A stretch of DNA of 53,205 nt from Clostridia bacterium (GTDB taxonomy: Bacteria; Bacillota; Clostridia; Lachnospirales; JAOARL01): positions 1 through 53,205 of the forward strand of contig JAOARL010000030.1 in assembly GCA_025210555.1 (NCBI GenBank). The letters are read 5' to 3'. Below, piece by piece: positions 27,137-49,923 of this stretch. The notes beneath the pieces are model-generated. The model saw only the letters and a list, made by a program, of their open reading frames with translations. It did not search any database and was not told the DNA's origin. The translations under genes were made by a program, and so were the position numbers. Position 1 is the stretch's first letter, and the number at the start of each line of letters is the position of its first letter.

Positions 27137-28828
27137 TTAATATTGAGTCATTGACTCATTTTTAACTATTAGTTCAGAATGAAGCTTATTTATATTTCCA
27201 AGTTTCTTGTGCATCTTTTCTAAGAAAATCTTAAGTATCTTAGCTTCAAGGTCTAAATCATCTTCAAACATTGCTTTTAATGTATCTTTATTTATCTTTG
27301 TAACAACAACATCTGTATCTGCTATTGCGTTAACATTATATAAGTCATTAACAAAAGTTGTTTCTCCTATTACTTCATTATCTCTAATTGTACCAATTAA
27401 AATCTCATCTTTGTCTTCTGTATATTTAATTATTCTTATTTCACCTTTTAAAACAAAATACACACTATTGTTTTTGTTACCTTCTCTAAATATAATATCA
27501 TTTTCCTTAAAGTTGTATATATTCATATTTGTAACAATTTCTTTAAGTTGTAAATCGTTTAATATATCAAAGCCTTCTATATTTTTAATAATATCATACT
27601 TATCTAACTCTTCGCTATCAATTTCTGATTTACTTATCATATTTATATTTTTTCTAATATCTTCAATCTTTTCATTTGCAACTTTTATAAGTGATACCCA
27701 CGCTTTTTGAAATTCTACATACTCATCAAAAACATCATAATCTGCTTTGGCATCGTATTTACTCATATATATATTTTCAAGACACGCTTTAACACCTTCG
27801 TTGTCACCATTTGTCATATAGTCAAATGCTAACATCATGTTAGTTTTAAATATTCTTTCTTCAAGATCATCCTTTAAGAATTCTCCAGGATATGGATCAA
27901 ATTCTGTTGCTAAAACTTTTCGCATATTTGGAAGATCTTTTTGCGAGTCAATTTTAGCTTTCTCATATAAAAATCTATACATATCTTCTCTAAATCTTTT
28001 CCATATTGGATGATTTTTCTTAGGTGGTAAATGCTTAATTGATAACCTATTATCTAAAAAGAAGTCATATCCAAACATCTTTGAATTTAATAAATAGTCA
28101 ATATCTTCTCCTCTTGTTACTCTTGGATCAAAAGGAACTGTTCTAAATAAATTTTTATGAATTATCATAGCTCCTCCAAAAGCAAATGGAGTCTTTTTTA
28201 TAACTGGATCTTTACCAATTATCTCATCAAAGGCTTTTCCCTTAGCCCCAAATCTATCCCAGTATGTCATCCATGGCAAAATCTCTACATCATCATAATA
28301 CTTACCATATTTATTTAAATAATAACCAGCAACTCCATATATAGTCTCACCATATATTCTTGTTCCCATATGTTCTTTTGCCATATCTATAAATTTAGGA
28401 TTTTCAAAAACTTCATCATCATCTATTAACATTGCTACATCTGATCCCATTATGTGAGATACAAATAAACACATATTTCTAACATTAGAATATCCTTTCA
28501 TTGATAAGCTATCAAAAGCTATATCTAAATTTTTTATTGCATTTAAATGCGCATCTGTGAAAAGAATAACTTCTATGTTAAGATTTGCTTTATTTATTAT
28601 ATTTCTAACCTTTTCTTCCGCTTCGTTAAATATTTCATTGGTAGTAGTACAAAGAAGTATTGCTAATTTATACTTTTTATTTTCTAGATTTTTCATACTC
28701 TCTAGAGTTCTAAGTAATGTGCCCTCTTCATCTACAGGAGTTGGGTGATCATATATAACATCACCTTCTTTATGTCCTTCATCTCTAGTTCTTGACCAAT
28801 AAGTAGGTATTACAACTGTCGTTTTCAT
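27137..28828 (-). CDS. GT-A glycosyltransferase fused to a cyclic-nucleotide-binding-like domain
   Basis: 563 aa. Residues 1-300 are a GT-A fold: TTVVIPTYW start, metal-binding Asp triad LIDDDEVF (about 138), the acceptor region PFAFGGAMIIHKNLF and RGEDIDYLLN (about 245). A helical spacer follows (about 300-420). The last 125 residues are a CRP-like cNMP-binding beta barrel (FKENDIIFREGNKNNSVYFV; GEIRIIKYTEDKD; NEVIGETTFVND). The phosphate cassette keeps GE but the usual Arg (R-x-A) appears as Tyr, so ligand binding is uncertain. ATG 28828 is chosen over a GTG two codons upstream because AGGAG would lie too close to the GTG. No membrane segment. It lies between a GT4 gene and ndk in one operon. 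Confidence 0.85.
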   Translation of the reverse strand: MKTTVVIPTYWSRTRDEGHKEGDVIYDHPTPVDEEGTLLRTLESMKNLENKKYKLAILLCTTTNEIFNEAEEKVRNIINKANLNIEVILFTDAHLNAIKNLDIAFDSLSMKGYSNVRNMCLFVSHIMGSDVAMLIDDDEVFENPKFIDMAKEHMGTRIYGETIYGVAGYYLNKYGKYYDDVEILPWMTYWDRFGAKGKAFDEIIGKDPVIKKTPFAFGGAMIIHKNLFRTVPFDPRVTRGEDIDYLLNSKMFGYDFFLDNRLSIKHLPPKKNHPIWKRFREDMYRFLYEKAKIDSQKDLPNMRKVLATEFDPYPGEFLKDDLEERIFKTNMMLAFDYMTNGDNEGVKACLENIYMSKYDAKADYDVFDEYVEFQKAWVSLIKVANEKIEDIRKNINMISKSEIDSEELDKYDIIKNIEGFDILNDLQLKEIVTNMNIYNFKENDIIFREGNKNNSVYFVLKGEIRIIKYTEDKDEILIGTIRDNEVIGETTFVNDLYNVNAIADTDVVVTKINKDTLKAMFEDDLDLEAKILKIFLEKMHKKLGNINKLHSELIVKNESMTQY

Positions 28829-28838
28829 ATACACACTC

Positions 28839-35360: not shown

Positions 35361-36524
35361 CTACTTAACTTTTATAAAACATACTTTTAAGTAATTGCCT
35401 TCTTTAAATTCTTTTAATGTTTTAAAATCTCTAGGCAAAGTTTCACTTTCAAGTATTTCATACTCTTTGTTACTTTCTTCAAACGCTAATTTTATAAATT
35501 CTTTAAACTTAGTCATATTGAAAAGTGCACAATTAGTAGATGCTACTATTACTCCATTTTTTCTAGTTATCTTTATTATCTGCTTTAGAAGATCTTTATA
35601 ATCTTTATTCGCACTAAATTTAAATTTCTTGCTTCTAGCAAAACTCGGTGGATCAAGAACTATAAGATCATACATCAAGTTCTTCTTTTCAGCATATTTA
35701 AAATAATTAAATACATCTTCAACAATAATTTCGTTTGCATTAAAGTCCACTCCATTTAATGCGAAATGTTCTTCTGTCTTTTCCCTACTTCTATTTGCTA
35801 AATCAACACTAACCGTCTTCTTAGCTCCTCCCAGTGCTGCAAACACTGAAAACGCACCTGTATATGAAAAAGTATTAAGTGCTATTTTATTATTAGCATA
35901 TCTTTCCATTATTTTTCTTCTAACATCTCTTTGATCTAAAAATACTCCTACCATAGCGCCATCATCAAAATAAATCGCAAAGTTAACATTATTTTCCTTT
36001 ACTATAATAGGAAAACTAGCTCTATTTCCACAAACGAATTCATCTTCTTCAACATAAGTCCCGCTATCGCCAAATCGCTTCTTTTCATATATACCTTTAT
36101 ATTTTATATTATTTTTTATGGCTTTTAGAATTTCTCCTCTAAATTTTATTATTCCTTTATTATACCAATTAATAAGAACAAAACCATCAAAGTAATCTAT
36201 TGTCATTCCTCCAATACCATCACCTTCATTGTTAAATACTCTAAATGCATTAGTTACTTCTGATTCAAAAAATGACTTTCTATACTTAACTGCCTCTTTT
36301 ATTTTTTTATCAAAAAATTTATCATCAATTCTTTCTTCTTGGTCAAGCGTTAAAATCCAGCCAGTTCCTTTATTTTGTTTTCCTGCATAACCTCTAGCTA
36401 AGAACTTACTATTTTCATCAACTAAAGTTAGGATATCTCCATTTTTAGACTTTGTTTCTTCATTGATTAATGGATATCCTTTTTTATATTTACTTACATA
36501 TTTACTTTTTATAATTATCTTCAT
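35361..36524 (-). CDS. RlmI/YwbD-like 23S rRNA methyltransferase
   Basis: 387 aa. N-terminal PUA-like domain (about 1-75: ILTLVDENSKFLARGYAG), then the RlmI EEHD/RRM-like and Rossmann parts: VGVFLDQRDVRRKI (about 196), SAM motif ALNTFSYTGAFSVFAALGG (about 218), catalytic VLDPPSFARSKKFKF (about 300). RlmI forms m5C at 23S position 1962. Full length. No strong SD is visible. Confidence 0.88.
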   Translation of the reverse strand: MKIIIKSKYVSKYKKGYPLINEETKSKNGDILTLVDENSKFLARGYAGKQNKGTGWILTLDQEERIDDKFFDKKIKEAVKYRKSFFESEVTNAFRVFNNEGDGIGGMTIDYFDGFVLINWYNKGIIKFRGEILKAIKNNIKYKGIYEKKRFGDSGTYVEEDEFVCGNRASFPIIVKENNVNFAIYFDDGAMVGVFLDQRDVRRKIMERYANNKIALNTFSYTGAFSVFAALGGAKKTVSVDLANRSREKTEEHFALNGVDFNANEIIVEDVFNYFKYAEKKNLMYDLIVLDPPSFARSKKFKFSANKDYKDLLKQIIKITRKNGVIVASTNCALFNMTKFKEFIKLAFEESNKEYEILESETLPRDFKTLKEFKEGNYLKVCFIKVK

Positions 36525-36598
36525 TTTTCACAACCTCTTGTTTTTATACTTTTAATAACTTATCATATTATATATAAATATACAATAAGGAGCAAACT

Positions 36599-37030
36599 AT
36601 GTCTGATTTAGAAAAAGCAAAAAGCTACTGCTTTAAATATTTATCAAAGTGCCTTATATCTGAAAGTTCTATGTGTAAAAAACTTAAAGATAAAGGCTTT
36701 AATGATGATGTAATAAATAAATGTATTGATATATGTATTGATTATGATTACTTAAACGACTCTACATATACAAGTAACTTTATTTCAAATTCTTTAAACT
36801 TCAAAAATTGGGGTTATTTTAAAATTAAACAAAAGCTTATTGAAAAGGGAATAAAATCTAATATAATAGAAAAATCATTAGACATGATAGACTTTAAGAC
36901 TAAAGCAATAGATGTCGCTGAAAGAAAATTTAGTAGTTACGATGATAGAGATAAAACTTTCAAATATATGCAAAATAATGGTTTTAAAACATCTGAAATC
37001 TTATATGCATTTAAAGAACTGGAAATATAA
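36599..37030 (+). CDS. recX: Regulatory protein RecX
   Basis: 143-aa inhibitor/modulator of RecA filaments. Three tandem three-helix RecX repeats are visible: ESSMCKKLKDKGFNDDVINKC, GYFKIKQKLIEKGIKSNII and the C-terminal KTFKYMQNNGFKTSEILYAF. Short but typical in Firmicutes. recA is not in the window. SD AAGGAGC. Confidence 0.9.
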   Translation: MSDLEKAKSYCFKYLSKCLISESSMCKKLKDKGFNDDVINKCIDICIDYDYLNDSTYTSNFISNSLNFKNWGYFKIKQKLIEKGIKSNIIEKSLDMIDFKTKAIDVAERKFSSYDDRDKTFKYMQNNGFKTSEILYAFKELEI

Positions 37031-37063
37031 AAGGATATATATGCTATTCATATATATCCTTTT
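37029..37063 (+). terminator. Terminator of recX
   Basis: AAAAGGATATATATG pairs with CATATATATCCTTTT around a five-base loop; overlaps the stop codon. It could also act for the convergent lipoprotein gene. Confidence 0.8.
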
Positions 37064-37072
37064 ATGTTAAAT

Positions 37073-37816
37073 TTACTTTTCGTCATTTTCTATTTTAATC
37101 ATTTTGCTTGCATTTAACTGCATTGGATAACTTTCCATTACTGATGTTGCATAAACCCCCAATGTATCTCCAACTTCTAGTTCTGATATATCAAACATAA
37201 GTCTTCCCTCTGGCGCAAAGTTATATTCTCCACCATCTTTATCTTTACCTGATAATAACATTGCTCCATTTTCACCTCTTGAGATCTCACTAATAGTTAT
37301 ATTTATAACAAAATCATTATTATGTACACTAACTACATTATCACCTTCTCCAAAGTTCAAATATTCCACTGTTACGTTTGTGCCTTTTACAATATCTTGT
37401 GTTTCATATGTATTATATTTTTTTCCATTAACTTTGATATACTTTTCTGTTACTTCTTCAACTTTACCTGTAACTTCGCTTATCATATGTCCCATATTAG
37501 TATGATTTATATCAAATCCTGTTTCCTTAATATCTTCAAGTGAAAGCTTCCCTTCTTCACCTTTTATTACACCAACCTCCTGACTTAAATAAAAGTCATT
37601 TTCATTATCCACTTTAAATATATCTATTACATCCCCAGACATAATATGTACCCCTTCTGCTTCAAATCCTACAATTTTACCAGCCCACTCATATTTTTCA
37701 TAATTTGTTACACTAGCTGGCTCTATTACGTCAATACCATTATTTCTTGGCGCCTCTGTACCGCATGCCGTTAAAATCAACATAGATGCTAATGCACCTG
37801 CCATTATTATTTTCAT
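37073..37816 (-). CDS. Lipoprotein of unknown function, 247 aa
   Basis: Signal MKIIMAGALASMLILTAC with lipobox LTAC at about 15-18 marks an exported lipoprotein. The mature part has two related beta-rich halves: VEEVTEKYIKVNGKKYNTYE and MLLSGKDKDGGEYNF, reminiscent of small OB-like or DUF3221-type domains. No ligand is evident. SD AGGAGATGATAA. Confidence 0.75.
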   Translation of the reverse strand: MKIIMAGALASMLILTACGTEAPRNNGIDVIEPASVTNYEKYEWAGKIVGFEAEGVHIMSGDVIDIFKVDNENDFYLSQEVGVIKGEEGKLSLEDIKETGFDINHTNMGHMISEVTGKVEEVTEKYIKVNGKKYNTYETQDIVKGTNVTVEYLNFGEGDNVVSVHNNDFVINITISEISRGENGAMLLSGKDKDGGEYNFAPEGRLMFDISELEVGDTLGVYATSVMESYPMQLNASKMIKIENDEK

Positions 37817-37871
37817 ATTATCATCTCCTATTTTTTATTGTATATATACTTAGACTAACTTAATTAAAAAA

Positions 37872-37888
37872 AGTTCCATAAAAGAACT
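37872..37888 (-). terminator. Weak terminator of the GIY-YIG gene
   Basis: AGTTC/GAACT stem followed by a T-run on the minus strand; the stem is short. Confidence 0.6.
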
Positions 37889-38131
37889 CTATTTTAATTT
37901 TATTAACTTCTCTTTTTCAGATTTAGTCATTTTTTTAATTGCATATTCTCTTTTCATTGCTTCTTTTTTATCTTCAAACTCTTCAAAGTACAAAAGCTTT
38001 ACAGGTCCTCTTCCTTTTGTATACTTTGCCCCTTTTCCTTCATTGTGAGCTTCTATTCTTTTTTCTAAATTGTTGGTCCATCCTGTATATAAAGTTTTAT
38101 CTTTACATTCTAATATATATATATAATTCAT
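37889..38131 (-). CDS. GIY-YIG nuclease family protein (UPF0213/YhbQ)
   Basis: 80 aa: [28 protein letters not shown] gives the GIY-YIG-type core (YIY...YTG), the catalytic Arg in [10 protein letters not shown] and the conserved Glu in [15 protein letters not shown]. Typical single-domain length for UPF0213. These are small stand-alone nuclease-like proteins, with repair roles suggested in other bacteria. Confidence 0.9.
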
Positions 38132-38171
38132 ATACGCTCCCTTTATTTGTATTTATACATTATTATACAAA

Positions 38172-38199
38172 AAAAGAGCGTACATTTGTACACTCTTTT
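38172..38199 (-). terminator. Terminator of the first MCP gene
   Basis: AAAAGAGTGTACA pairs with TGTACGCTCTTTT (one G-T) and is followed by further Ts on the minus strand. Confidence 0.85.
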
Positions 38200-38203
38200 A
38201 ATA

Positions 38204-40243
38204 TTATGCTTTAAATTTATTTATTTCATCATCTAAATCTTTAGCTAAATGGCTAAGTTCAGTAGATGAATTTGCAACTTCATTCATAGCACTTGTTTGT
38301 TGTTCCATTGATGCATTTATTTCTTCTGCTGAAGCAGATGCTTCTTCAGATATAGCTGAAATATTTTCAATTGAACTAACAATTTTATTTTTAAACCCAT
38401 TAACAACTTCAACTGTTGCATCTATATTATTAATTTTTTCAATTATACTATAGATTTCTTCTTTAATATTTCCAAATGATTCGCTAGCTTCTAAAACTGA
38501 AGCATTTTGTGCTTCTGCTTTTTCTTTTAACTCTTTCATTACAGCAACGTTGTTATCTGATGTTTCACTTATATCATTAACTATATTTGCAATCTCATCT
38601 GTTGCTTCATTAGAATTCTCTGCAAGCTTTCTAATTTCATCTGCAACTACCGCAAACCCTTTTCCATGTTCTCCTGCTCTTGCCGCTTCAATTGACGCAT
38701 TAAGTGCTAAAAGATTTGTTTGCTCTGTAATACTCTTAATAGTCTCAAGTATATTACTAATATTTGCTGATTTAGATTGTAGCTCTAATATAGCTTCTTC
38801 AATTTTTATAATTGATTCATTATTTTCTGTTGTTTTAACTCTTAGGTCTGTAACAACTTTTATCCCACTCTCATTTGCTTCTGACACTACTTTTGATGAA
38901 TCTAACATTTCTTTACTATTTGACACCAAGTTATTCATTTCACTATCAAGTTTAGATGCAACTACCGCTCCATCTTGAGCACTTGTAGCTTGATCAACAA
39001 GTCCTGTTGATATTTCTTCTACTGATCTTCCAACTTCTTCTGAAGAAGCGTTTACCTCTTCTGAAAGTGCTGCTAAATTTGTAGAAGATGATAGTAAATT
39101 ATTACTTATTGATTTAGATGTTGTAACTAAACTCTTTAAATTTACAAGCATTTTATTAAAACTGTCTGAAATCTCACCAATTTCATCATCTGATTTTATG
39201 TCGACACTAACATTTAAATTACCATCAGCAACTGTTTTTAGCCCATTAACAAGTTTTGGTACATCTTTAAGTGATTTTCTAGCTATATAATAGATTGATC
39301 CTACTATGATTATCGCAGTTAATAAATAAATAACCATTACTGTATTCCTAAGTGCGTTAACTTCTCCATATACATCTGCTTCATCCATAGTCATAGCAAC
39401 TGACCATCCAGTTGATTCTATTGGATTAAATGCCATATACTTCTTTATTCCATTATATTTGTATTCTTCTAATCCACTTTTTCCACCTATCATTTTTTGT
39501 TCGATAGTTGCAAGTGCAGAGCTTAAGTCTGATACATGCTTCTCAAGAATATATTCTGAATTTGGATGATAAATAAATTTACCCTCACTATCAACTAGTA
39601 CTGCATAACTATTACCTTGCTTATAGCCTTCCATAACTTCAGCTATTTTAGCAATATCAATATCTACAGCTACTGTTCCTAATATTCTATTTCCATCGTA
39701 CATTGGTGTTGATGCTGTAACAACAAGTTCTCCTGTCATAGCATCATGGTAAGGTGATGTTACGTGAGAATCTTTTTTAGCTAATGTATCTATATACCAG
39801 CCTCTTTTGTGAAGATCAAAATCATCATTTACTTTATAATCAATATCCTTAGTTACAAGGTTATTGTTTTCATGTAATCCAATGAAGACCATTCTTAAAT
39901 TCTCATCCATACCTCTTAAGTTTTTCATTGTTTTAGCTACAGTAGGATATAAAGAAACTCTTTTTGATGCTTCCCTATCCTTGCCTACCTCTTCAGTTTC
40001 CATTACATATTTTCTAAAAATATTACTTTGTGCTATTGATTTAGTATAAGCAACTTTCTCCTTAAAATATGCATCAATTTCTTCTGAAATCCCTTTAACC
40101 TGATTAACTGTAGATGTTCCTGATATATCAGAAACAACCATGCTAACCTTGTTTGTTATATACGCTCCTGATATTAAAAACGCAATAACTGTTACTACTG
40201 TTAAAACCCCTACTAACTTTCCTGCTAAACTTTTTCTATTCAT
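38204..40243 (-). CDS. Methyl-accepting chemotaxis protein with dCache sensor
   Basis: 679 aa transmembrane chemoreceptor. TM1 at about 10-30, extracytoplasmic dCache-type sensor ([48 protein letters not shown]), TM2 at about 295-315, HAMP at about 318-370 and the signalling hairpin with [20 protein letters not shown] (about 515). Signals to CheA/CheW; these are not in the window. It has its own promoter. Confidence 0.95.
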
Positions 40244-40269
40244 GTCTCCCCCTTTTTAGTGTCCCTAAT

Positions 40270-40298
40270 ATGATAATATAAAATTTTTCTATATTCAA
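40270..40298 (-). promoter_or_regulatory. Promoter of the first MCP gene
   Basis: TTGAAT (40293-40298) and TATCAT (40270-40275), 17-base spacer on the minus strand: sigma-A-like. I do not see a sigma-28 motaxis-type sequence. Confidence 0.6.
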
Positions 40299-40303
40299 GA
40301 AAA

Positions 40304-40330
40304 AAATACTAACTTTTTTAGTTAGTATTT
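40304..40330 (-). terminator. Terminator of the coaE-PDT unit
   Basis: AAATACTAAC/GTTAGTATTT stem, loop seven bases, then Ts on the minus strand; overlaps the stop codon. Confidence 0.85.
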
Positions 40331-40860
40331 CTCCTCTTAAACAACATGAATTTAGTCGCATTTTCTTCATTATCATTCATATTTTTATGAATTAAATTCA
40401 AGCCATATATTTCGCCAGCTTTTGTACTACAAAGAACTGCTTCATCTCTTCTTAATTCTTTAGCTGCTATCGCTGTATCTTTTTTTTCTTGTGTTTCAAT
40501 GTTTTTATATATCTTTTTAATTTTCTCTTTGCATTGTGCCAATGCTTGAGAATGTGAAACAATTTTCACAAAATCATTAGTCCTTGCATATAAATTATGC
40601 TCTATTTTAAGCTCATACTCATATATTTTTTCTACTTTATCGTAATTTATGACTTCTTCAGTTTCTGTCACAATACCGGCTGTATTATTTGATATAGCAC
40701 AAAGCCCTATATCAATTTTTCCTCTAACTAAATTTTCATAAACACTTTCACTTGTTACTAACCCAACAAATTCAACATCATATATCTTAAGTTTATCTAT
40801 TATTTTTTCAGCAGCTATATGACTATAACTACCTTCTATGCCCTGGTAACCTAATTTCAT
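40318..40860 (-). CDS. Orphan prephenate-dehydratase-like domain
   Basis: 180 aa covering only the prephenate dehydratase fold: GYQGIEGSYSHIAAEK (about 4-19), SHSQALAQC (about 101-109) and ENATKFMLF near the end. In active enzymes the last motif is T-R-F; here it is T-K-F. The E-N-S-x-x-G-S-V motif is replaced by SNNTAGIV. The C-terminal ACT regulatory domain is missing. It starts two bases after coaE and is therefore an odd partner. Could be an active short dehydratase or a ligand-binding relative. Confidence 0.75.
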   Translation of the reverse strand: MKLGYQGIEGSYSHIAAEKIIDKLKIYDVEFVGLVTSESVYENLVRGKIDIGLCAISNNTAGIVTETEEVINYDKVEKIYEYELKIEHNLYARTNDFVKIVSHSQALAQCKEKIKKIYKNIETQEKKDTAIAAKELRRDEAVLCSTKAGEIYGLNLIHKNMNDNEENATKFMLFKRRNTN

Positions 40861-40862
40861 TT

Positions 40863-41447
40863 TTATATTATTTCCTCTAACAATCTTTTATATAATTTTT
40901 CTTTAGATGCTGAGTTGTTTATTATTATATTTGCATATCTTACTTTTTCTTCCATTGGAATTTGCATTTCGACTCTCTTTGTGGCTTCTTCTTCACTTAT
41001 TTTATTTTTTTCCATAAGTCTTTCAATCTGAAGTTTTTTTTCTGTATTTACAAGCCATATTTCATCCACTATTTTTTGTATTCCACTTTCAATTAAAAGT
41101 GGTGCATCTACAAAAATAACTTTTTCACCAAAATTCACTCTATACATTTTAATTTGCTCAGATATTAATCCTTCTATTTTGTTATGTGTTATCTCCGTAA
41201 GTTTTTCAAATTTACTATTACTAGAATAAACAATATGTCCAAGTTTCTTATTATCTATCCAATTATCCTCATTTAATACCTCTTCACCAAATTCTCTTAA
41301 TATTTCATAATACGCATGACTACCCTTACTCATTACATATTTTGATATTACATCTGCATCAATTACAATAAATCCATTTTCTCTTAAGAAACTTGTTATC
41401 GTACTCTTACCAGTAGCAATACCTCCTGTTATTCCAATTACCTTCAT
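40863..41447 (-). CDS. coaE: Dephospho-CoA kinase
   Basis: 194 aa. It phosphorylates dephospho-CoA at the ribose 3'-OH to give CoA. P-loop GITGGIATGKSTI (about 5-17), DADVISKYVM (about 30), VDAPLLIESG (about 112) and the C-terminal RVEMQIPMEEKVRYANIII region are family features. It is followed directly by the PDT-like gene. Confidence 0.95.
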   Translation of the reverse strand: MKVIGITGGIATGKSTITSFLRENGFIVIDADVISKYVMSKGSHAYYEILREFGEEVLNEDNWIDNKKLGHIVYSSNSKFEKLTEITHNKIEGLISEQIKMYRVNFGEKVIFVDAPLLIESGIQKIVDEIWLVNTEKKLQIERLMEKNKISEEEATKRVEMQIPMEEKVRYANIIINNSASKEKLYKRLLEEII

Positions 41448-41491
41448 CTAGCCCTCTCCTTTATAATCTAGTTCACTTAAAGTTTACATTG

Positions 41492-41538
41492 AAAAAGAGC
41501 TTATTTCAATAATTTTAACCAAATTGAAATAACCTCTT
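41492..41538 (-). terminator. Strong terminator after the CHC2 gene pair
   Basis: About 15 paired bases (AGAGGTTATTTCAAT against ATTGAAATAAGCTCT) followed by TTTTC on the minus strand. It overlaps the stop codon of the second zinc-finger gene and separates the pair from coaE. Confidence 0.8.
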
Positions 41539-42328
41539 ACTCATATAATTGTATTTCATTTTCAATTTTCTTCTTTTCATATTCAAAGGCAACAATATCT
41601 TCAACTGAATTAATGTCATATATTGATAACCCAGTATGGTTTAGATTGTTAAAATCAAGATGATTCTTTATATCTTCATGTGTAGTTGTCATTTTATCCT
41701 TTAATTCCTCATAAGAACTATACTCATAGTCACTAAGAGTATTATAAAAAATCTCATCCAGATTGTTTTCTTCAATGCCTATCTCATATTTTTTTTCTTG
41801 TTTTCTTTTTGTTGCATTCCACTGAAATAAAGAATCTCTCCTTCTAGGCTCATTTGGCAATTTGTTTTCATACTCCTCATAAGTATGTGATCCTATTTCA
41901 TGCTCCAAATATCCTAGGTGTAGTGCTCTTGCTTCAAGGTATGCTAAAGTAGCTCCAAACTTTAAATTTTCTACCCTCTCAATAAATTTAAAGACACTTC
42001 CTGCTGCCCCACATCCAAAGCAGTGATATAATTGTTCCTTTCTGCTTATAGTCAAAGACGGTGTTTTTTCATTATGAAAAGTACATATCATATATATATT
42101 TTGTGATTCTTTGCTATGTAAGGTTGTTCCATATTCCGAAATAACCTCAACTATGTCATTTGCTTTCCTTATACTTTCAACTTCCTCATCTGTATAAAAC
42201 TTTTTAAATATCCTATATCCTTTATTTATACCTTCTTGAAAGAATTCCAATTCTTTCTTTGAAAACTTTCCTTCTATATCTAACCAGCTTTCTTTTCTGT
42301 ATTTTTCTCTGTTTTTATACTTCTTCAT
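41537..42328 (-). CDS. DnaG-type CHC2 zinc-finger protein without catalytic domain (second copy)
   Basis: 263 aa. A unique N-terminal 50 residues leads into YTDEEVESIRKANDIVEVIS, the helical start of DnaG primase, and the zinc ribbon CTFHNEKTPSLTISRKEQ...CFGCG (C-x2-H, C-x2-C) at about 83-107. The following FKFIERVENLKFGATLAYLE is also DnaG-like. The primase TOPRIM and helicase-binding domains are absent; instead there is an acidic unrecognised tail (about 150-263). SD GGAGGTG. It is a diverged paralogue of the gene 45 bases upstream. Confidence 0.8.
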   Translation of the reverse strand: MKKYKNREKYRKESWLDIEGKFSKKELEFFQEGINKGYRIFKKFYTDEEVESIRKANDIVEVISEYGTTLHSKESQNIYMICTFHNEKTPSLTISRKEQLYHCFGCGAAGSVFKFIERVENLKFGATLAYLEARALHLGYLEHEIGSHTYEEYENKLPNEPRRRDSLFQWNATKRKQEKKYEIGIEENNLDEIFYNTLSDYEYSSYEELKDKMTTTHEDIKNHLDFNNLNHTGLSIYDINSVEDIVAFEYEKKKIENEIQLYE

Positions 42329-42373
42329 TTTTACACCTCCTTTATTAAAATAATATTTTATTTATATCTTCTA

Positions 42374-43213
42374 TTATCTTTCAAAATTATTCTTTGCTTT
42401 TTCAAACTCAACAAGATCTTCTGTATCATAAAAATCATATTGAGTATCTCCTGAATTGTTAATATCAATTGACTCAGAAAACTCCCACGTTTCTAAGTGT
42501 TCCTGTATATCAGATTCTGCTGTTCTCATCTTTGGTTTAATATAATCAAAAAAATTAACTAAATGTATATTTCTAGTCTGAGTATAAAAAAGCTCTGACA
42601 TTTTACCTTCATCCATAGCCCTTTCATAATCATTTTCTTCTGTCTTGATTTTTTCTAATTTAGGTTTTAGATTTTCAATTTTTCTACCTATGGCTAACTT
42701 TTGAAAGTTCGAATCCCATCCCACTGCATTAAATGGCAATCTCTCTTTATGTTCTTTATAGCTATATACCCCAAGTTCTTTTTCAAGATAACCAAGATGA
42801 AGAACTCTAGTTTCTAAAAGAGTTACTGCTCTTCTAAAATTTAAATTTTCAATCCTCTTAATAAAATCAAACACATTACCAACTGCGCCACACCCAAGGC
42901 AATTATATAATTCCCTATCAGAAGCTTTAAAAAGACTCATCGAAGGCGTTTTTTCACTATGAAATGTGCATATAGCGTGTACACCTTCTCCTGTTCTACT
43001 TTTATATACTTCTTGATATTCCGCTATTACATCAACTAATCTATTTGATTTCATAATTTCGTCTATTTCTTCATCCGTATAATACTTATTAAATATCTTA
43101 TAATCATTTTTTATACCTTTCATAAAAAGGCTCAACTCTTTTTTTGTAAACTTACCAGGTTTCAGGTACCAAGGAGTCTTTTTAACCCTTAATCTATTAG
43201 AATACTTACCCAC
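42374..43213 (-). CDS. DnaG-type CHC2 zinc-finger protein without catalytic domain (first copy)
   Basis: 279 aa starting at GTG 43213 with AGGAGG eight bases upstream; an earlier in-frame GTG falls inside the SD. Layout equals the second copy: W-x4-GKF-T/S-KKEL N-terminal motif, YTDEEIDEIMKSNRLVDVIAEY, the zinc ribbon CTFHSEKTPSMSL...CLGCG (about 83-110), NVFDFIKRIENLNFRRAV, then a different acidic tail containing a DLVEFE helix. No TOPRIM. Both copies share one consensus promoter upstream of this gene. Function unknown; nucleic-acid binding is the most likely role. Confidence 0.8.
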   Translation of the reverse strand: MGKYSNRLRVKKTPWYLKPGKFTKKELSLFMKGIKNDYKIFNKYYTDEEIDEIMKSNRLVDVIAEYQEVYKSRTGEGVHAICTFHSEKTPSMSLFKASDRELYNCLGCGAVGNVFDFIKRIENLNFRRAVTLLETRVLHLGYLEKELGVYSYKEHKERLPFNAVGWDSNFQKLAIGRKIENLKPKLEKIKTEENDYERAMDEGKMSELFYTQTRNIHLVNFFDYIKPKMRTAESDIQEHLETWEFSESIDINNSGDTQYDFYDTEDLVEFEKAKNNFER

Positions 43214-43243
43214 TATAAACACCTCCTTTTAATAATTACTATT

Positions 43244-43272
43244 ATTATACCTCTCTAAAAATGTTTATTCAA
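43244..43272 (-). promoter_or_regulatory. Promoter of the CHC2 gene pair
   Basis: TTGAAT (43267-43272) and TATAAT (43244-43249) are 17 bases apart on the minus strand; close to consensus. Confidence 0.8.
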
Positions 43273-43300
43273 GAATTTTCTGATAATTGTTCATTCTAAA

Positions 43301-43324
43301 AAAGGCGCTGTTTTCAGCACCTTT
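43301..43324 (-). terminator. Terminator of the Nudix gene
   Basis: AAAGGTGCTG/CAGCGCCTTT stem with a four-base loop and T-run on the minus strand. Confidence 0.85.
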
Positions 43325-43327
43325 CAA

Positions 43328-43810
43328 TCAACTAAACATAACTATATCACTTGATATTTTCTCTTTATTTATGATTTTTTTAGCAACAACTAATAATGGT
43401 GAAGAATTTTTATCATTAAGATTATCTATACTAATCCACTTAATTCCAGCAGAGTCGTTAACTTCATTTTCATCTATCATTTCTGAAATATTTACTCTTA
43501 TCTTATTTTTCAAAGCTTCTTCTATAATAAAAAAATTAGCTATATGATGGGTGTGAGTATGTCCATTATATGGAGCTTCTGCTAAAAAATCATATGTTCC
43601 TTTATTTACTATCTTACTTATTTCATAACCTGTTTCTTCAAGAATCTCCCTTTTTATTCCTTCTAGTATGGTTTCATTATCCTTTATTCCTCCACCTGGA
43701 AGGTCGTATCTACCCGCATAAGGACCTGTTACTTTCTTTATAACCAAAATTTCACCATTTTCAGCACATATACCATAACTACCTATATGTCTATGCCAAT
43801 TTCTTTCCAT
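43328..43810 (-). CDS. Nudix hydrolase
   Basis: 160 aa. The Nudix box GGGIKDNETILEGIKREILE-ETG (about 38-60) is complete (G-x5-E-x7-R-E-x2-E-E-x-G). It would hydrolyse a nucleoside-diphosphate-linked substrate; specificity is not readable. I use ATG 43810 (SD GAGGTGG); an earlier GTG overlaps the SD. Confidence 0.9.
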   Translation of the reverse strand: MERNWHRHIGSYGICAENGEILVIKKVTGPYAGRYDLPGGGIKDNETILEGIKREILEETGYEISKIVNKGTYDFLAEAPYNGHTHTHHIANFFIIEEALKNKIRVNISEMIDENEVNDSAGIKWISIDNLNDKNSSPLLVVAKKIINKEKISSDIVMFS

Positions 43811-43916
43811 TAAAACCACCTCACTTGAATTTTTCTTGCATTCGCAAGTAAAACCATTATACCATCATTAAGAGCTCTCACAATGTCACATACATTAATA
43901 TACAATTACATATTTG

Positions 43917-44981
43917 TTACTTAGCAAATATTTTTAACTCCATTATTATTTTTCTTAATAAATAACTATACATGATTTTAGATTTTATATTCTTATATAG
44001 TATATTTATTTTTATACTTACTGCCTTTCTTCTATATTTTTTTAATATTTCTTTTTTATTATTAATTGCATCTGCAAGAATAATTGCGCTTTTAAACGCA
44101 TAACTAAAACCTTCTGCTGAACTCGGACTTATAAACCCTGCCGCTTCACCTATCAAAAATTTATTTTCAAAACCAAGTTTTATATTACTACTTCTAGTTG
44201 GTCTTGTTATAAAAGCCCCTTCTTTTTTTATTAAACCATCTAAATTAAATCCTTTTTCTTCAAGAAAATTTTCAAGCACAACAAATTTTTCATTTGCTTT
44301 TATGTTTTCTTTAGCTTTTATAGCAGTTCCTAAAACGAGGTATTCACCTTTTGGAATCATCCAAGAGTAAAAATCAGTGACATTATTATTAAAAACTGCT
44401 AAATAATGATCTATTTTATCACTTGATTTATACCACTTTTGCATTGCAATATATTTATCTACAGCTCTATCTTCATCTGGATAAATAAGGCTTCTAACTT
44501 TTGAAATTGATCCATCTGCTCCTATAATATTATTAGTTTTAATCTTTTTTGTTTCTCCATCTTTATAATAAAAAACTTCATAAATATTATTTTCATACTT
44601 AAAACCTTTAAAAACCGCACTATATTCTTTTTTTACCCGCTCTGGTATTATTGATGCCATCCACCTATCATACTTTTCTCTATCTATATTAATATAATTT
44701 TTCTTATATATATTTTGTTTTTTTATTTTGCTATCTATAGTTTTCACAGTATTAAGTTGAGGCGATACCAAAACACTATTAGGTATCTTTAATTCCAGTT
44801 TTTCAAGCACCTTTTGAGCAGCTGGTGCTATTAGTCCTCCACAGCATTTCGAACTCAACCATTTTTCGTTTTGATCTAAATTTCGCCTATCCAATATAAT
44901 AACATTATTAGTTTTATCGATAAGACGCGCTATTGTACTTCCAGCTGGTCCAGCTCCTATTATCGCATAATCATATATCAT
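43917..44981 (-). CDS. FAD-dependent oxidoreductase, geranylgeranyl-reductase-like
   Basis: 354 aa flavoprotein with GxGxxG dinucleotide motif YAIIGAGPAGSTIARL (about 5-20), the pair CCGGL (about 46), NIIGADGSISKVRSLI (about 151) and the second FAD motif KFLIGEAAGFISPSSAEGF (about 270), which is typical of GGR and of related FAD-dependent reductases. ATG 44981 follows GAGGTG with a good spacer; an upstream ATG lies before that SD. Substrate unknown. No terminator is seen right after it. Confidence 0.85.
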   Translation of the reverse strand: MIYDYAIIGAGPAGSTIARLIDKTNNVIILDRRNLDQNEKWLSSKCCGGLIAPAAQKVLEKLELKIPNSVLVSPQLNTVKTIDSKIKKQNIYKKNYINIDREKYDRWMASIIPERVKKEYSAVFKGFKYENNIYEVFYYKDGETKKIKTNNIIGADGSISKVRSLIYPDEDRAVDKYIAMQKWYKSSDKIDHYLAVFNNNVTDFYSWMIPKGEYLVLGTAIKAKENIKANEKFVVLENFLEEKGFNLDGLIKKEGAFITRPTRSSNIKLGFENKFLIGEAAGFISPSSAEGFSYAFKSAIILADAINNKKEILKKYRRKAVSIKINILYKNIKSKIMYSYLLRKIIMELKIFAK

Positions 44982-45049
44982 TTTATTCACCTCTTTATAC
45001 AATTATATATGAACCTAAGTTTTAAAGTTTACATTAAAACAACAAAAAA

Positions 45050-45081
45050 ATAACTATATCTATTATAATAGATATAGCTAT
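45050..45081 (-). terminator. Terminator of the peroxiredoxin gene
   Basis: ATAGCTATATCTAT pairs with ATAGATATAGTTAT, with a T-run after it on the minus strand. Confidence 0.85.
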
Positions 45082-45086
45082 TTTAA

Positions 45087-45752
45087 CTATAGTGACTTAT
45101 AAGTAAACCACCAATCTTTGTATTCTAACTCTCCTTTTTCTGCTTGCTTTTTTCTCTTTTCTGCAAGTTCTTCTGTTCCAGCTGGTGGAACAATGACTTT
45201 ATCTCCAAGCCAAGCATTATTAGGATAATTTTCAGGAGCAGCAACTCCATGTTTATCAGAAACTTGAAGTGCATTTAGTGATCTTAATACTTCATCAACA
45301 CTTCTACCTACTTCTTGAGGATAATACATCATAAGTCTTAACTTACCTTTAGGGTCTACAATAAATACTGCTCTTACTGTATTTGTTCCTTTTCCAGGAT
45401 GTAGCATACCTAAAGTTTTAGCAACTATTCCAAGTTCATCTGCTATTACCGGGAAAGGTACCTTTACATCCGTATTTTCATTAATCCATTCTACCCATTT
45501 TATATGTGAAAATACCTGATCAACTGATAATCCTATAAGTTCTGCATTTAACTTTTTAAATTCATCTGCTCTTTGTGAAAAAGCAACAAATTCTGTAGTA
45601 CATACTGGTGTAAAATCACCTGGGTGACTAAATAATACAAACCACTTTCCTTTATAATCATCTGGTAATACTCTATTACCATGTGTTGTTTTTACTTCCA
45701 TCTTAGGAAATTCATCTCCTAATAAAGGTAATTTACTTTCAAATTTTTCCAT
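45087..45752 (-). CDS. Peroxiredoxin, 1-Cys (Prx6) type
   Basis: 221 aa thiol peroxidase. The peroxidatic Cys is in [16 protein letters not shown] (about 38-53). The Prx6-type C-terminal arm is present ([19 protein letters not shown] near 175-193), and no resolving Cys is evident in the usual C-terminal position. It sits next to trxB and could use thioredoxin-type electrons. Good SD AGGAGTG. No PerR-like box is visible upstream. Confidence 0.93.
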
Positions 45753-45823
45753 TTACATCACTCCTTCTATGAAGATTTTTCTTCACAATTTCATTCTACT
45801 CTTAGTAATATATAGTGTCAAAT

Positions 45824-46789
45824 TTATCTCTTTTGTCCAATCAACTGTGCGCTACTTTCTAATCTTTCAATATATTTTTCTGCTTCTACTGCTGCTATTG
45901 CACCATCTGAAGTAGCAGTAACAACTTGTCTTAAATCCTTAACTCTTACGTCCCCTGCTGCATATATTCCATCTACACTAGTTTTCATTTTTTCATCAGT
46001 TATTATATATCCTTTTTCATCTAAATCTAACAAAAGACTAAATAGTTCAGTATTAGGCTTTCTTCCTATAAATATAAATAGTCCATAATTATCATTTTTC
46101 CCACCTAGTAATTTTTCTTCTCCAGTTTCTTTATTCTCTACTAAAATTGATTCTATACCATTTTGGCCATTTACCTTTTTTATTTCTACATTTGAAATAA
46201 TATCTATTTTTTCATTCTCTTCGGCTCTTGCTATATAATACCTACTTGCTTTAACCTTTTCGCTTCTATTTAATATTGTTACCTTCTTTACAAATTTTGT
46301 TAAAAATATAGACTCTTCTATTGCTGAGTTCCCAGCACCAACTACAAAAACCTCATAATCTGAAAAAAAGACTCCATCACAAAGAGCGCAGTAGCTTATA
46401 CCTCTACCTATTAATTTTTCTTCTCCTTCTGCTCCAAGTTTTTTTGCTCTATTTCCTGTAGCAATTATTATAGTTTTAGCTAAATATTCTCCTTTGTTTG
46501 TAAAAATTTTTTTAAGCATTCCTTCTTTTTTTATTTCTACAATCTCTTCATATATAAAATGTACATCATTTTCTTCACACTGTACCTGCATTTTATTTAC
46601 TAACCCTGCTGCATTATTTTTTTCAGTATATCCTGGATAATTAGCCATATTTGAAGTTAAGCTCACCTGTCCACCTACAAATCCTTTTTCAAATATTGCT
46701 ACTTTCAATTTTGCCTGAGACCCATATAATCCTGCTGAAAGTCCAGCTGGTCCTGCCCCTATTATTATTAAATCAAATTCTTTACTCAT
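45824..46789 (-). CDS. trxB: Thioredoxin reductase
   Basis: 321 aa. FAD motif LIIIGAGPAGLSAGLY (about 7-22), redox centre YCALCDG (about 135), NADPH loop VVGAGNSAIEESI (about 150) and IYAAGDVRVKDLRQVVTA-type FAD end (about 275). The redox pair is CALC rather than CATC or CAVC. ATG 46789 follows GGAGGGG; an upstream ATG is less likely. It precedes the peroxiredoxin gene by 71 bases. Confidence 0.94.
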   Translation of the reverse strand: MSKEFDLIIIGAGPAGLSAGLYGSQAKLKVAIFEKGFVGGQVSLTSNMANYPGYTEKNNAAGLVNKMQVQCEENDVHFIYEEIVEIKKEGMLKKIFTNKGEYLAKTIIIATGNRAKKLGAEGEEKLIGRGISYCALCDGVFFSDYEVFVVGAGNSAIEESIFLTKFVKKVTILNRSEKVKASRYYIARAEENEKIDIISNVEIKKVNGQNGIESILVENKETGEEKLLGGKNDNYGLFIFIGRKPNTELFSLLLDLDEKGYIITDEKMKTSVDGIYAAGDVRVKDLRQVVTATSDGAIAAVEAEKYIERLESSAQLIGQKR

Positions 46790-46883
46790 ATAATCCCCTC
46801 CAGTTTTAATTCCTAGCATTTCACTTGGTTTTCATGTTTATCATACATTCTTTAAATGATGGATGTCAACTTCATCTAAAAAA

Positions 46884-46906
46884 GAGCCTATTAATCTTTA
46901 AGGCTC
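46884..46906 (-). terminator. Terminator of the EEP-family gene
   Basis: GAGCCT/AGGCTC stem with an eleven-base loop and a T-run on the minus strand. Confidence 0.75.
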
Positions 46907-47763
46907 AAATCTACTATTACTGGATAATGATCGCTCACTGGTTTACCATTAAATAAGTATGAATTATCAACTCTATATTTTTTAACTCTAACTTTTTCTT
47001 TACTTACAAAACAAAAATCTATTGGTTTAAGATGCTTAAAATTAAAGTTATAAAACCAATTTATTGTTCCATAAGACATTGTATCTTCTGCTAAATATTT
47101 ACTATCCTCAACTTCTTTATTTCTAATCATCATTTTATATGCTATTGTCCCCTCCATAAAATTAAAATCTCCCGTTAATATGTATGGAGTTTTTATTTCT
47201 TCCAGTCTCTCTAAAACAAGTCTTACACCCTCTACTCTTGCAACATCGCCCTTATGATCAAGATGAAGATTAAAATGCGTATATATTTCTCCAGTCTTTA
47301 CATCTTCTAAAGTAACCCATGTACATATTCTATTACATACTGCATCCCATCCAATTGACGGTTTATCTGGTGTCTCTGATATCCAGAATGTCCCCGAATC
47401 TTTTATTTTATATTTATCTGTTTTATAAAATATTGCTGCATATTCTCCTTTTTTATCACCATCATCTCTTCCGACTCCTACATATGAATATCCTTTGAAA
47501 ATTTTAGGCAAACCGTCTTCTTCATTCATCCAAATAGAATCTGCTTCTTGAACTCCTATTGAATCTGGATCATACTTTAATACTTGCTTTGCAATAATAT
47601 CTTTTCTAATCTTCCATTCATCATAGTTACTACTCCCATATTTTAAATTATACGATACAATCCTTAGGTCTCCTATTTTTTTCTCTCCTACTGGTTTTAA
47701 ACTTGGAATATAAACAAAAAAATATATAAGCAATATAATTAATAAATATACTATTTTCTTCAT
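46891..47763 (-). CDS. Membrane-anchored endonuclease/exonuclease/phosphatase family protein
   Basis: 290 aa with an N-terminal hydrophobic anchor (IVYLLIILLIYFFVYIPSL) followed by the EEP catalytic fold: IVSYNLKYGSSN (about 36), VQEADSIW (about 66), FNLHLDHKGDVAR (about 163), TGDFNFMEGT (about 196) and the final SDHYPVIVDL (about 278). All catalytic acids and His are in place. It acts outside the membrane; DNA, inositol-phosphate or phospholipid substrates are all possible for this family. ATG 47763 has SD GGAGAGG. Confidence 0.88.
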   Translation of the reverse strand: MKKIVYLLIILLIYFFVYIPSLKPVGEKKIGDLRIVSYNLKYGSSNYDEWKIRKDIIAKQVLKYDPDSIGVQEADSIWMNEEDGLPKIFKGYSYVGVGRDDGDKKGEYAAIFYKTDKYKIKDSGTFWISETPDKPSIGWDAVCNRICTWVTLEDVKTGEIYTHFNLHLDHKGDVARVEGVRLVLERLEEIKTPYILTGDFNFMEGTIAYKMMIRNKEVEDSKYLAEDTMSYGTINWFYNFNFKHLKPIDFCFVSKEKVRVKKYRVDNSYLFNGKPVSDHYPVIVDLSLKD

Positions 47764-47829
47764 TTCACACCTCTCCTTCATCTATAATACGATATACTCT
47801 TAAAATTTCGTTCAATTTCAAAAAAATAA

Positions 47830-47859
47830 AAGAGCTTTTTAGTTATACTAAAAGCTCTT
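47830..47859 (-). terminator. Terminator of the second MCP gene
   Basis: AAGAGCTTTTAGT pairs with ACTAAAAAGCTCTT around a three-base loop, followed by a T-run on the minus strand. Confidence 0.85.
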
Positions 47860-47865
47860 AGTTTT

Positions 47866-49923
47866 TTATATCTTAAATTGTGAAACTTTATTTGCTAATT
47901 CCTCTGACATATTTGCAAGTCCAGTAGTTGCTGAAGTTTGCTCTTCTACTGATGCTAATTGTTCTTCTGTTGCAGCTGCTATTGAAGCTGCTTCTTCAGC
48001 TGATTTGTCAGTTAGAGAACTTAATTTTTTAGCTGACTCATTTGATTCAGTTGAATTAATCTGTATCTTTTTAGCAAGATCATCTGCTGAAACTGCTAAT
48101 TTATTAACCTCTGAAACACTAGTTATTATATTATTAAACGTTTCTTTAACTTCTGCTAAATCTTCTTTTCCTTTAATAATAGAACTTACAACTGATGTAG
48201 TTGATTCATTTGCTTCTTGAGTCGCTTCTGAAACACTACTTATAATATTAGAAATATTATTTGCTGATTCAGATGACTGCTCTGCAAGCTTTCTTATTTC
48301 ATCTGCAACTACTGCAAATCCTTTTCCAGCTTCGCCTGCTCTTGCAGCCTCTATTGAAGCATTAAGTGCTAATAAATTAGTTTGATTTGAAATCTCTTGT
48401 ATAGTATCAACTATAGTATTAATTTGACTAGAGTGCTCTCTTAATTCTGTCATAACTTTAGATAAATCATTTGCATCTTCAAATATCTTTTCCATTGATT
48501 CAATTAATACTTTTACTAAACTTTCACTTCTTTGAGAAAGTCCATCTACTTCATTTATAGAAGTACTTATATTAGTCATTTCCCCTTCTATATTTTTAGA
48601 TAAGTTACTTACATAATCTATTAGTTCATCTAAATTTTGTGTTACTTTTGCTATATCTGAATTTGAACTAGATATCTCTGTTGCTGCTGTTGCAACCTGC
48701 TCTACAGCTAATCCATTTTGATTTGCTGAAGCCTCAAGTTCTTCTGCTGTATGTGCTACATTTTGTGAAGTTTCTAAGATTTCTCTTATTGTTCCTCTTA
48801 AATCTGCTGACATCTTGTTTATTGCTATAGCCATTTCTCCTATTTCATCTTCAGATTTTACTACTATATTTTTAGAAAAATCACCTTTTGATATTCCCTC
48901 TATATCTTTCTTTAACGGTATTAAAGGTTTTGTTATGTTTTTTGATATCAATACTATTAAAGCTGATAACATTGCTACTGATATAAGTGTTATCATAAAT
49001 ATATCAAATCTCATTTTATTAATAGCTCCAACATATTCTTCTTCTGGTATAGTAAGCATTACTATCCATCCAGTTTCATCAATAACAGAATATTTTACAA
49101 TGTTTTTTCCATTATTATCAACAAATCTTCCTTCTCCATTAAGATTGATAATTGCTTCTTTCCCTAATTTAGATAAAGATTCATTTTCATCATCTATAAT
49201 CTTCTTAAAACTTCCATCATCGTTTACTTTAAGTTCTTCTGTACCCTTACTTAAATAAGATCCATCTGAAGTCAAAAGAATTGCATATCCGTTGCTTCCT
49301 ACCTTTATACTAGATACAATTTTTTGGACATTAGTAAAATCTAAATCTCCAGTAGCAATTCCAATCCATTTACCTTTAGAATTTCTAATAGGTGAAGCTG
49401 CCGTTATCATTGTTATATTAGAAGCTGCATCATAGTATGGCTCTGACCATGCTACATCTTTTTCTGTATTTCCTATTATATACCAACCTTCATTAGTATT
49501 ATCTGCAAAATAATCTTCTGTATATACTATTCCGTCATCTGTTTTATATGCGTATGGACAGAAATAACTTCCGTTATATTTATCTGCCATAAATATACCA
49601 TTTCCCAACGTTTCTTCATTGGCATTAGATATTACCTTTATTAAACCTATATACCCATTTTTATTATTTTCCTTTATTCCCATGTTTTCAACCATTTTGG
49701 CTAATGATATAGGCAATTTTTTATGTGTATCCAATTTTGAAACTATTTCTGATTTTGCTAATCCAACTTGATTTTCAACTTTTTCATTAATTTCTGTAGT
49801 TATAATTTTCCTTGAACTTTCAATAACCACTGCAGCAACAATTGTAAAAGCAATTATAACTACTGGTATTGTCCCAACTAAAATCTTGTTCTTAACTGTC
49901 TTAAATCTCTCAAGCATATTCAT
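47866..49923 (-). CDS. Methyl-accepting chemotaxis protein with Cache sensor
   Basis: 685 aa chemoreceptor: TM1 at about 12-32, dCache sensor ([46 protein letters not shown]), TM2 at about 310-330, HAMP and signalling domain with [20 protein letters not shown] (about 520). Different sensor sequence from the MCP at 38204, so a different ligand. A sigma-A-like promoter (TTTACA, 17, TATTCT) is possible upstream. Confidence 0.94.

Follow-up and report, generated by a model that had tools for sequence, protein, structure and literature searches.

The question raised by this locus is what two adjacent genes for DnaG-type zinc-ribbon proteins, neither with a TOPRIM catalytic domain, do in a small clostridial chromosome that also has a normal primase gene. 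On current understanding, priming in bacteria requires that the polymerase domain of a primase be acted on by the zinc domain of a second molecule; a free zinc domain occurring naturally alongside an intact DnaG would put that trans model to a ready test. We analyzed a stretch of 53,205 nucleotides from this genome, hereafter the window, in which the two genes lie in tandem.

42374–43213, minus strand: p2, the first gene of the pair, encoding a 279-residue CHC2 protein (GTG start, AGGAGG upstream)
41537–42328, minus strand: p1, the second gene of the pair, encoding a 263-residue CHC2 protein (ATG start, GGAGG upstream)

Both frames are intact, with 45 bases between them and a strong ribosome site ahead of each; p2 would measure 282 residues if the mechanically called GTG at 43222 were taken as its start. 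A BLASTP alignment of p1 with p2 (E 3e-68) has 41% identity over 276 columns, within a range of 41–44% over the whole length. Identity at the three codon positions is 58/72/50% (257 aligned codons), so the proteins, and not merely the DNA, have been kept, which fits selection on protein. The pair is the product of an old duplication, and the two members share one architecture over their whole length, namely a basic arm, a zinc ribbon and an acidic tail. An earlier reading made from the sequence alone (the sequence-only reading) had described tandem paralogues of 263 and 279 residues with different acidic tails. The paralogues are as described and the tails are indeed acidic (p1, 117 residues, net charge −12; p2, 133 residues, net charge −9), but they are not unrelated: the BLASTP alignment carries the homology to residue 256 of 263.

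The central domain of each protein is a zinc ribbon.

42806–43078, minus strand: CHC2 zinc ribbon of p2 (ligands C82, H85, C105 and C108; Asn104 precedes the third ligand)
41930–42190, minus strand: CHC2 zinc ribbon of p1 (ligands C82, H85, C103 and C106; His102 precedes the third ligand)

Pfam assigns the ribbons to Zn_ribbon_DnaG (PF01807) with E-values of 1.1e-23 and 1.2e-20 for the pair, above the cut-off. No second family rises above the cut-off in either protein, TOPRIM and reverse transcriptase being absent from the Pfam matches, and the whole-protein scores against the DnaG primase model TIGR01391 (83.6 and 67.4 bits) do not reach the curated 283.6. The sequence-only reading had raised the question of a known family with a described role; searches of Pfam, TIGR01391 and PHROGs found none that covers p1 or p2 over the whole protein. 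An AlphaFold model of p1 built from a 9-sequence input is confident at residues 47–135 only, which correspond to the zinc ribbon; a 2-sequence input gave a useless model with a mean pLDDT of 38.6. The predicted p1 ribbon matches the fold of the Bacillus stearothermophilus primase zinc domain (1d0q) with a target TM of 0.82, an rmsd of 1.5 Å, an E-value of 3e-8 and 41% identical residues, and that of the Aquifex aeolicus primase zinc domain (2au3) with an E-value of 1.5e-5. An intact CHC2 ribbon, a DnaG start helix in both paralogues and the lack of a TOPRIM domain had all been noted from the sequence; the ribbon and the missing TOPRIM are borne out by the Pfam results and the four ligands, the helix by alignment, and structure prediction, proposed at the time, agrees on the ribbon of p1.

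We compared the two ribbons with those of 62 DnaGs, which are deduplicated frames of 560–720 aa nearly all from the same phylum. All four zinc ligands are kept in p1 and p2, together with most of the residues conserved in the 62 DnaGs. There are also departures: CPFH becomes CTFH in both proteins, at a site that is proline in 62/62 DnaGs, two residues are inserted after Tyr66 in both, and CFGC becomes CLGC in p2 only. Immediately ahead of the third zinc ligand, p1, the host DnaG and 1d0q have His, 2au3 has Lys and p2 has Asn; the 62 DnaGs have His (33), Tyr (22), Arg (3), Lys (3) or Gln (1) at this position, and Asn in none. In Clostridium difficile DnaG, changing Lys70 to His lowers starts at CCC and raises starts at CTA, and the Lys70 position is occupied by His in Geobacillus stearothermophilus and by Lys in A. 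aeolicus (PMC5204125). In 1d0q and 2au3, this position is the one directly ahead of the third ligand. The start-site preferences of p1 and p2 may differ, because at this position p2 carries Asn in place of the His of p1 and the host DnaG.

Outside the ribbon, the two proteins share an N-terminal arm and a segment after the finger.

43133–43156, minus strand: GKFTKKEL in the basic N-terminal arm of p2 (residues 1–46, net charge +11)
42248–42271, minus strand: GKFSKKEL in the basic N-terminal arm of p1 (residues 1–46, net charge +7)
42728–42817, minus strand: LExRxLHxGxLxxE segment after the finger of p2, common to the G043 protein described below
41849–41938, minus strand: LExRxLHxGxLxxE segment after the finger of p1, common to the same protein

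The motif GKF(S/T)KKEL is present in both arms, as had been noticed, and the arm has no significant family match. The helix after the finger had been called DnaG-like; this does not hold, the segment having a motif of its own. Queried separately against PHROGs, arm and tail give nothing below E 0.01, and the tails have no match in Pfam. PHROG 11992 apparently spans p1 to residue 219, but the tail contributes about 4 bits and alone gives nothing of note, so this match was discarded as whole-protein kinship. The tails likewise have no Pfam match to the C-terminal helicase-binding domain, a variable domain that a sequence search may miss, and neither p1 nor p2 has an SSB-like tip at its C-terminus. 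In comparison with DnaG, whose zinc-binding domain (PF01807; 1d0q) they resemble in zinc ligands, fold and start helix, p1 and p2 lack a TOPRIM/polymerase domain and a recognized helicase-binding domain, and have an extra basic arm and acidic tail, CTFH in place of CPFH and their own helix motif after the finger.

In the genome from which the window comes (1.56 Mb, 99.6% complete), CHC2 is matched three times: by p1, by p2 and by a full DnaG. This host DnaG is intact and 579 aa long; from names read off the sequence, its gene presumably follows dgt and an S4-like gene and precedes rpoD. No other protein of this genome matches Toprim_2 (PF13155), which makes the host DnaG the obvious catalytic partner for the pair. 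We aligned the tails with a profile of the DnaG polymerase domain built from 66 DnaGs (deduplicated, 560–720 aa); the hhalign E-values of 0.13–0.16 fall within the range of the 10 column shuffles, of 60, that were compared. An intact DnaG elsewhere, a homologous arm and tail in both proteins, and a tail with no detectable similarity to the polymerase domain led us to reject a broken primase. The sequence-only reading had regarded the genes as orphan paralogues and had pointed to a full DnaG elsewhere and to frameshifted primase pieces as the things to look for; the open frames, the intact DnaG and tails that do not detectably derive from primase support its view.

Promoter-like and terminator-like elements around the pair include the following.

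43244–43272, minus strand: promoter-like TTGAAT-17-TATAAT upstream of p2 (a consensus match only)
41491–41536, minus strand: hairpin with T-run resembling a terminator, between p1 and coaE (−12.9 kcal/mol, z −4.5)
43292–43329, minus strand: hairpin with T-run resembling a terminator, following the NUDIX gene that lies upstream of the pair (−15.5 kcal/mol, z −5.1)

For each flanking hairpin, 0/200 shuffles fold as well; a consensus scan for terminators called neither. The pair looks like a transcription unit of its own. A single shared promoter, as had been proposed, is likely from the site before p2, and is unproven because another site, TTGAAA-18-TAAAAT (42384–42355, a 10/12 match), precedes p1 and makes separate expression possible; the region has 16 promoter-like sites, compared with 11.0 ± 3.1 in shuffles. 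The neighbors of the pair are genes for a NUDIX hydrolase, coaE, a prephenate dehydratase and a chemoreceptor-like protein, and no replication, mobile-element or defense gene was seen adjoining it. There are no Rfam matches at window positions 36000–48000. Third-position GC content is 0.24 and 0.21 for the pair, somewhat higher than in nine other window genes (0.13–0.19).

We searched three overlapping sets of genomes with a profile of the pair: 392 from the order, 391 from the class and 398 from the phylum. Whole-length matches, of at least 490 bits, occur in the window's genome only, whose family has no other member in the sample; matches in all other genomes score about 105 bits or less, and the full p1/p2 architecture is confined to the window's genome in all three draws. 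A scan of 84,980 named genomes returned three loci, and the short protein with the arm was seen in none; two of the loci have complete frames and are ordinary DnaGs, and the third (L065) is cut by a contig end. None of the matching phage or plasmid records covers 80% of p1 (0/161 and 0/160), none of the 113 matching phage records covers 80% of p2, and scans of viral contigs with p1 and with p2 found no relative. A first tree placed a viral-contig protein, L086, with the pair (97/86), at the end of a very long branch. We rejected it as kin, as the grouping disappeared once the motif columns were omitted and its segment scores are like those of shuffles (1214/5000 as high for p1, 2296/5000 for p2). 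The first tree excluded L013, L064, L090 and rows of fewer than 80 residues; the second also excluded L066, L067, L084, L085, L087, L088, L089, L092, L093 and rows of fewer than 70 residues. In an AU test, whose tree used every second DnaG and also excluded L065 and L086, a clade of the pair with its own DnaG was not rejected (p 0.278).

A partial relative was found in G043, a genome of another family in the same order, as a single-copy 437-aa CHC2 protein (L068:7325–8638). Its last 150 residues resemble p1 and p2 in having LExRxLHxGxLxxE behind a CHC2 ribbon; it differs in its single copy, in an SSB-like tip and in a 280-residue N-terminal extension that has no Pfam match. The kinship rests on the motif, which was picked after being seen. 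By local BLOSUM score, the G043 segment reaches 68 against p1 and 52 against p2, with 0/5000 shuffles as high in each case, and the best of 64 DnaG segments (deduplicated frames, 560–720 aa) reaches 31. A profile of the segment, run over 363 genomes of the order, gives E-values below 1e-17 for p1, p2 and the G043 protein only; a further match in G006, at E 0.002, was taken as chance. When just the ribbon core is used, support for the kinship is weak (81/85, not starred), and another tree did not recover it. The G043 protein ends in EDEGLDYVPF, resembling the SSB tips DDDDLPF and EDDSLPF of G043 and the window's genome (G000), and among 557 distinct frames of at least 150 aa such a tip occurs in this protein and one SSB only; it hints at single-stranded DNA and SSB.

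The G043 gene adjoins jetD2 in a Wadjet type II cluster (L068:397–9983), where jetC2 and jetD2 are separated by the CHC2 gene and a transposase, which we take to be IS3-like. Such adjacency was seen at 1 of 30 jetD loci. The window's genome has no match to PF09664 (DUF2399) at E ≤ 1 (0/1 genome) and none to a JetD protein, and with both observations in hand we rejected membership of the pair in a Wadjet system. Membership in a DRT system (RT_UG29, RTasDnaG-like) was also rejected: the PADLOC matches center on the zinc ribbon, and the proteins have no reverse transcriptase domain.

Stand-alone ribbons are known from phages. PMC7824862 describes stand-alone primase-type zinc ribbons in jumbo phages, and was the one paper in our literature search on this architecture to mention such ribbons. 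In phages, separate genes encode the ribbon and the helicase or TOPRIM. Ruminococcus gnavus phage phiRg507T2_3 encodes a stand-alone CHC2 protein, gp41, directly before its helicase gene, and many structural matches in BFVD also point to stand-alone CHC2 proteins being common in phages. Two viral contigs (L084:354–1019 and L089:6895–7518) each encode a stand-alone CHC2 protein, 221 and 207 aa long, after an apparent replicative helicase gene and before an apparent DNA polymerase III alpha gene. The phage proteins (PHROG 11992 and others) are like the pair in having a separate CHC2 ribbon, about 100–260 aa and no TOPRIM. They are encoded by phages and, where their context was inspected, within replication modules, whereas the pair is chromosomal, duplicated and isolated, with an arm and tail that have no significant PHROG match. 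The literature searched did not yield a form that is chromosomal and duplicated, has arm and tail, and lies away from any replication module.

What, then, might the pair do? One primase may act through its zinc domain on the polymerase domain of a second (Corn et al. 2005, as relayed in passages of PMC12418098 and PMC6783573). This reported trans action and the residue at the start-site position therefore lead us to favor, tentatively and at somewhat less than even chances, free zinc domains working in trans, either on the DnaG–DnaB primosome or on SSB-coated DNA. Of the roles suggested by the sequence-only reading, a regulator or partner of primase is, we infer, the best. In such a scheme, p1 and p2 would act in trans at the replication fork, using the zinc ribbon to bind single-stranded template and the arm and tail to dock. 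They could serve as a second template-recognition module for the host DnaG polymerase domain on the DnaB ring, or they could compete with DnaG's own zinc domain; either way, the place or frequency of primer starts would be altered. Against this, no replication gene adjoins the pair, and a helicase-binding domain was not detected, nor an SSB-like tip on p1 or p2. Moreover, the changes at near-fixed DnaG sites mean that template reading could be lost or altered, and the trans action known so far links full primases; we found no description of a naturally free zinc domain acting in this way. A more specific version, in which two differently tuned free zinc domains dock on the primosome and redirect primer starts as interchangeable specificity subunits, with p2 (Asn104) preferring a trinucleotide other than that of DnaG and p1 (His102), is improbable as it stands. 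If trans action is true, accessory subunits could be shown to change priming specificity.

The ribbon may instead have been reused in DNA- or RNA-binding regulators or accessory proteins unrelated to priming, such as single-strand sensors or transcription factors. The isolated chromosomal setting, the apparent transcription unit of its own, the substitutions at sites near-invariant in the 62 DnaGs and the unmatched arm and tail would all fit, but so close a retention of the primase ribbon (41% identical to 1d0q) would be needless for an unrelated use, and we hold this reading unlikely, if a serious competitor. Were it correct, the pair would be a case of reuse of the primase zinc ribbon. Decoys or adaptors that disturb an invader's priming, or domesticated phage replication proteins, are brought to mind by the stand-alone CHC2 proteins common in phages (gp41, the BFVD matches), by the G043 relative beside jetD2, with jetC2 and the transposase on its contig, and by the raised third-position GC content of the pair. 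The mobile or defense system suggested by the sequence-only reading has indirect support at most, from the G043 relative. A phage, mobile or defense origin or membership is nevertheless distinctly unlikely, given that no mobile-element or defense gene was seen beside the pair, that the jetD adjacency is confined to one locus in 30 and the window's genome has no DUF2399, and that phage and plasmid records for p1 and phage records for p2 all fall short of 80% coverage and the viral-contig scans yielded no relative.

The separate zinc-ribbon and helicase or TOPRIM genes of phages also lend some color to a split primase whose catalytic subunit, other than DnaG, is encoded elsewhere. We consider this very improbable: in a 99.6% complete genome searched for two families, the sole Toprim_2 match is DnaG and DUF2399 is missing. 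As for decaying fragments of a duplicated dnaG, about 100 residues do align with the DnaG zinc domain and the AU test tolerates a clade with the host's own enzyme, but frames that remain open with ribosome sites, 41–44% identity through arm and tail, a tail unlike the polymerase domain and an intact DnaG make this explanation scarcely tenable.

Elsewhere in the window, positions 27137–28834 encode a 565-aa protein that, by eye, resembles a glycosyltransferase with a cyclic-nucleotide-binding-like C-terminus.
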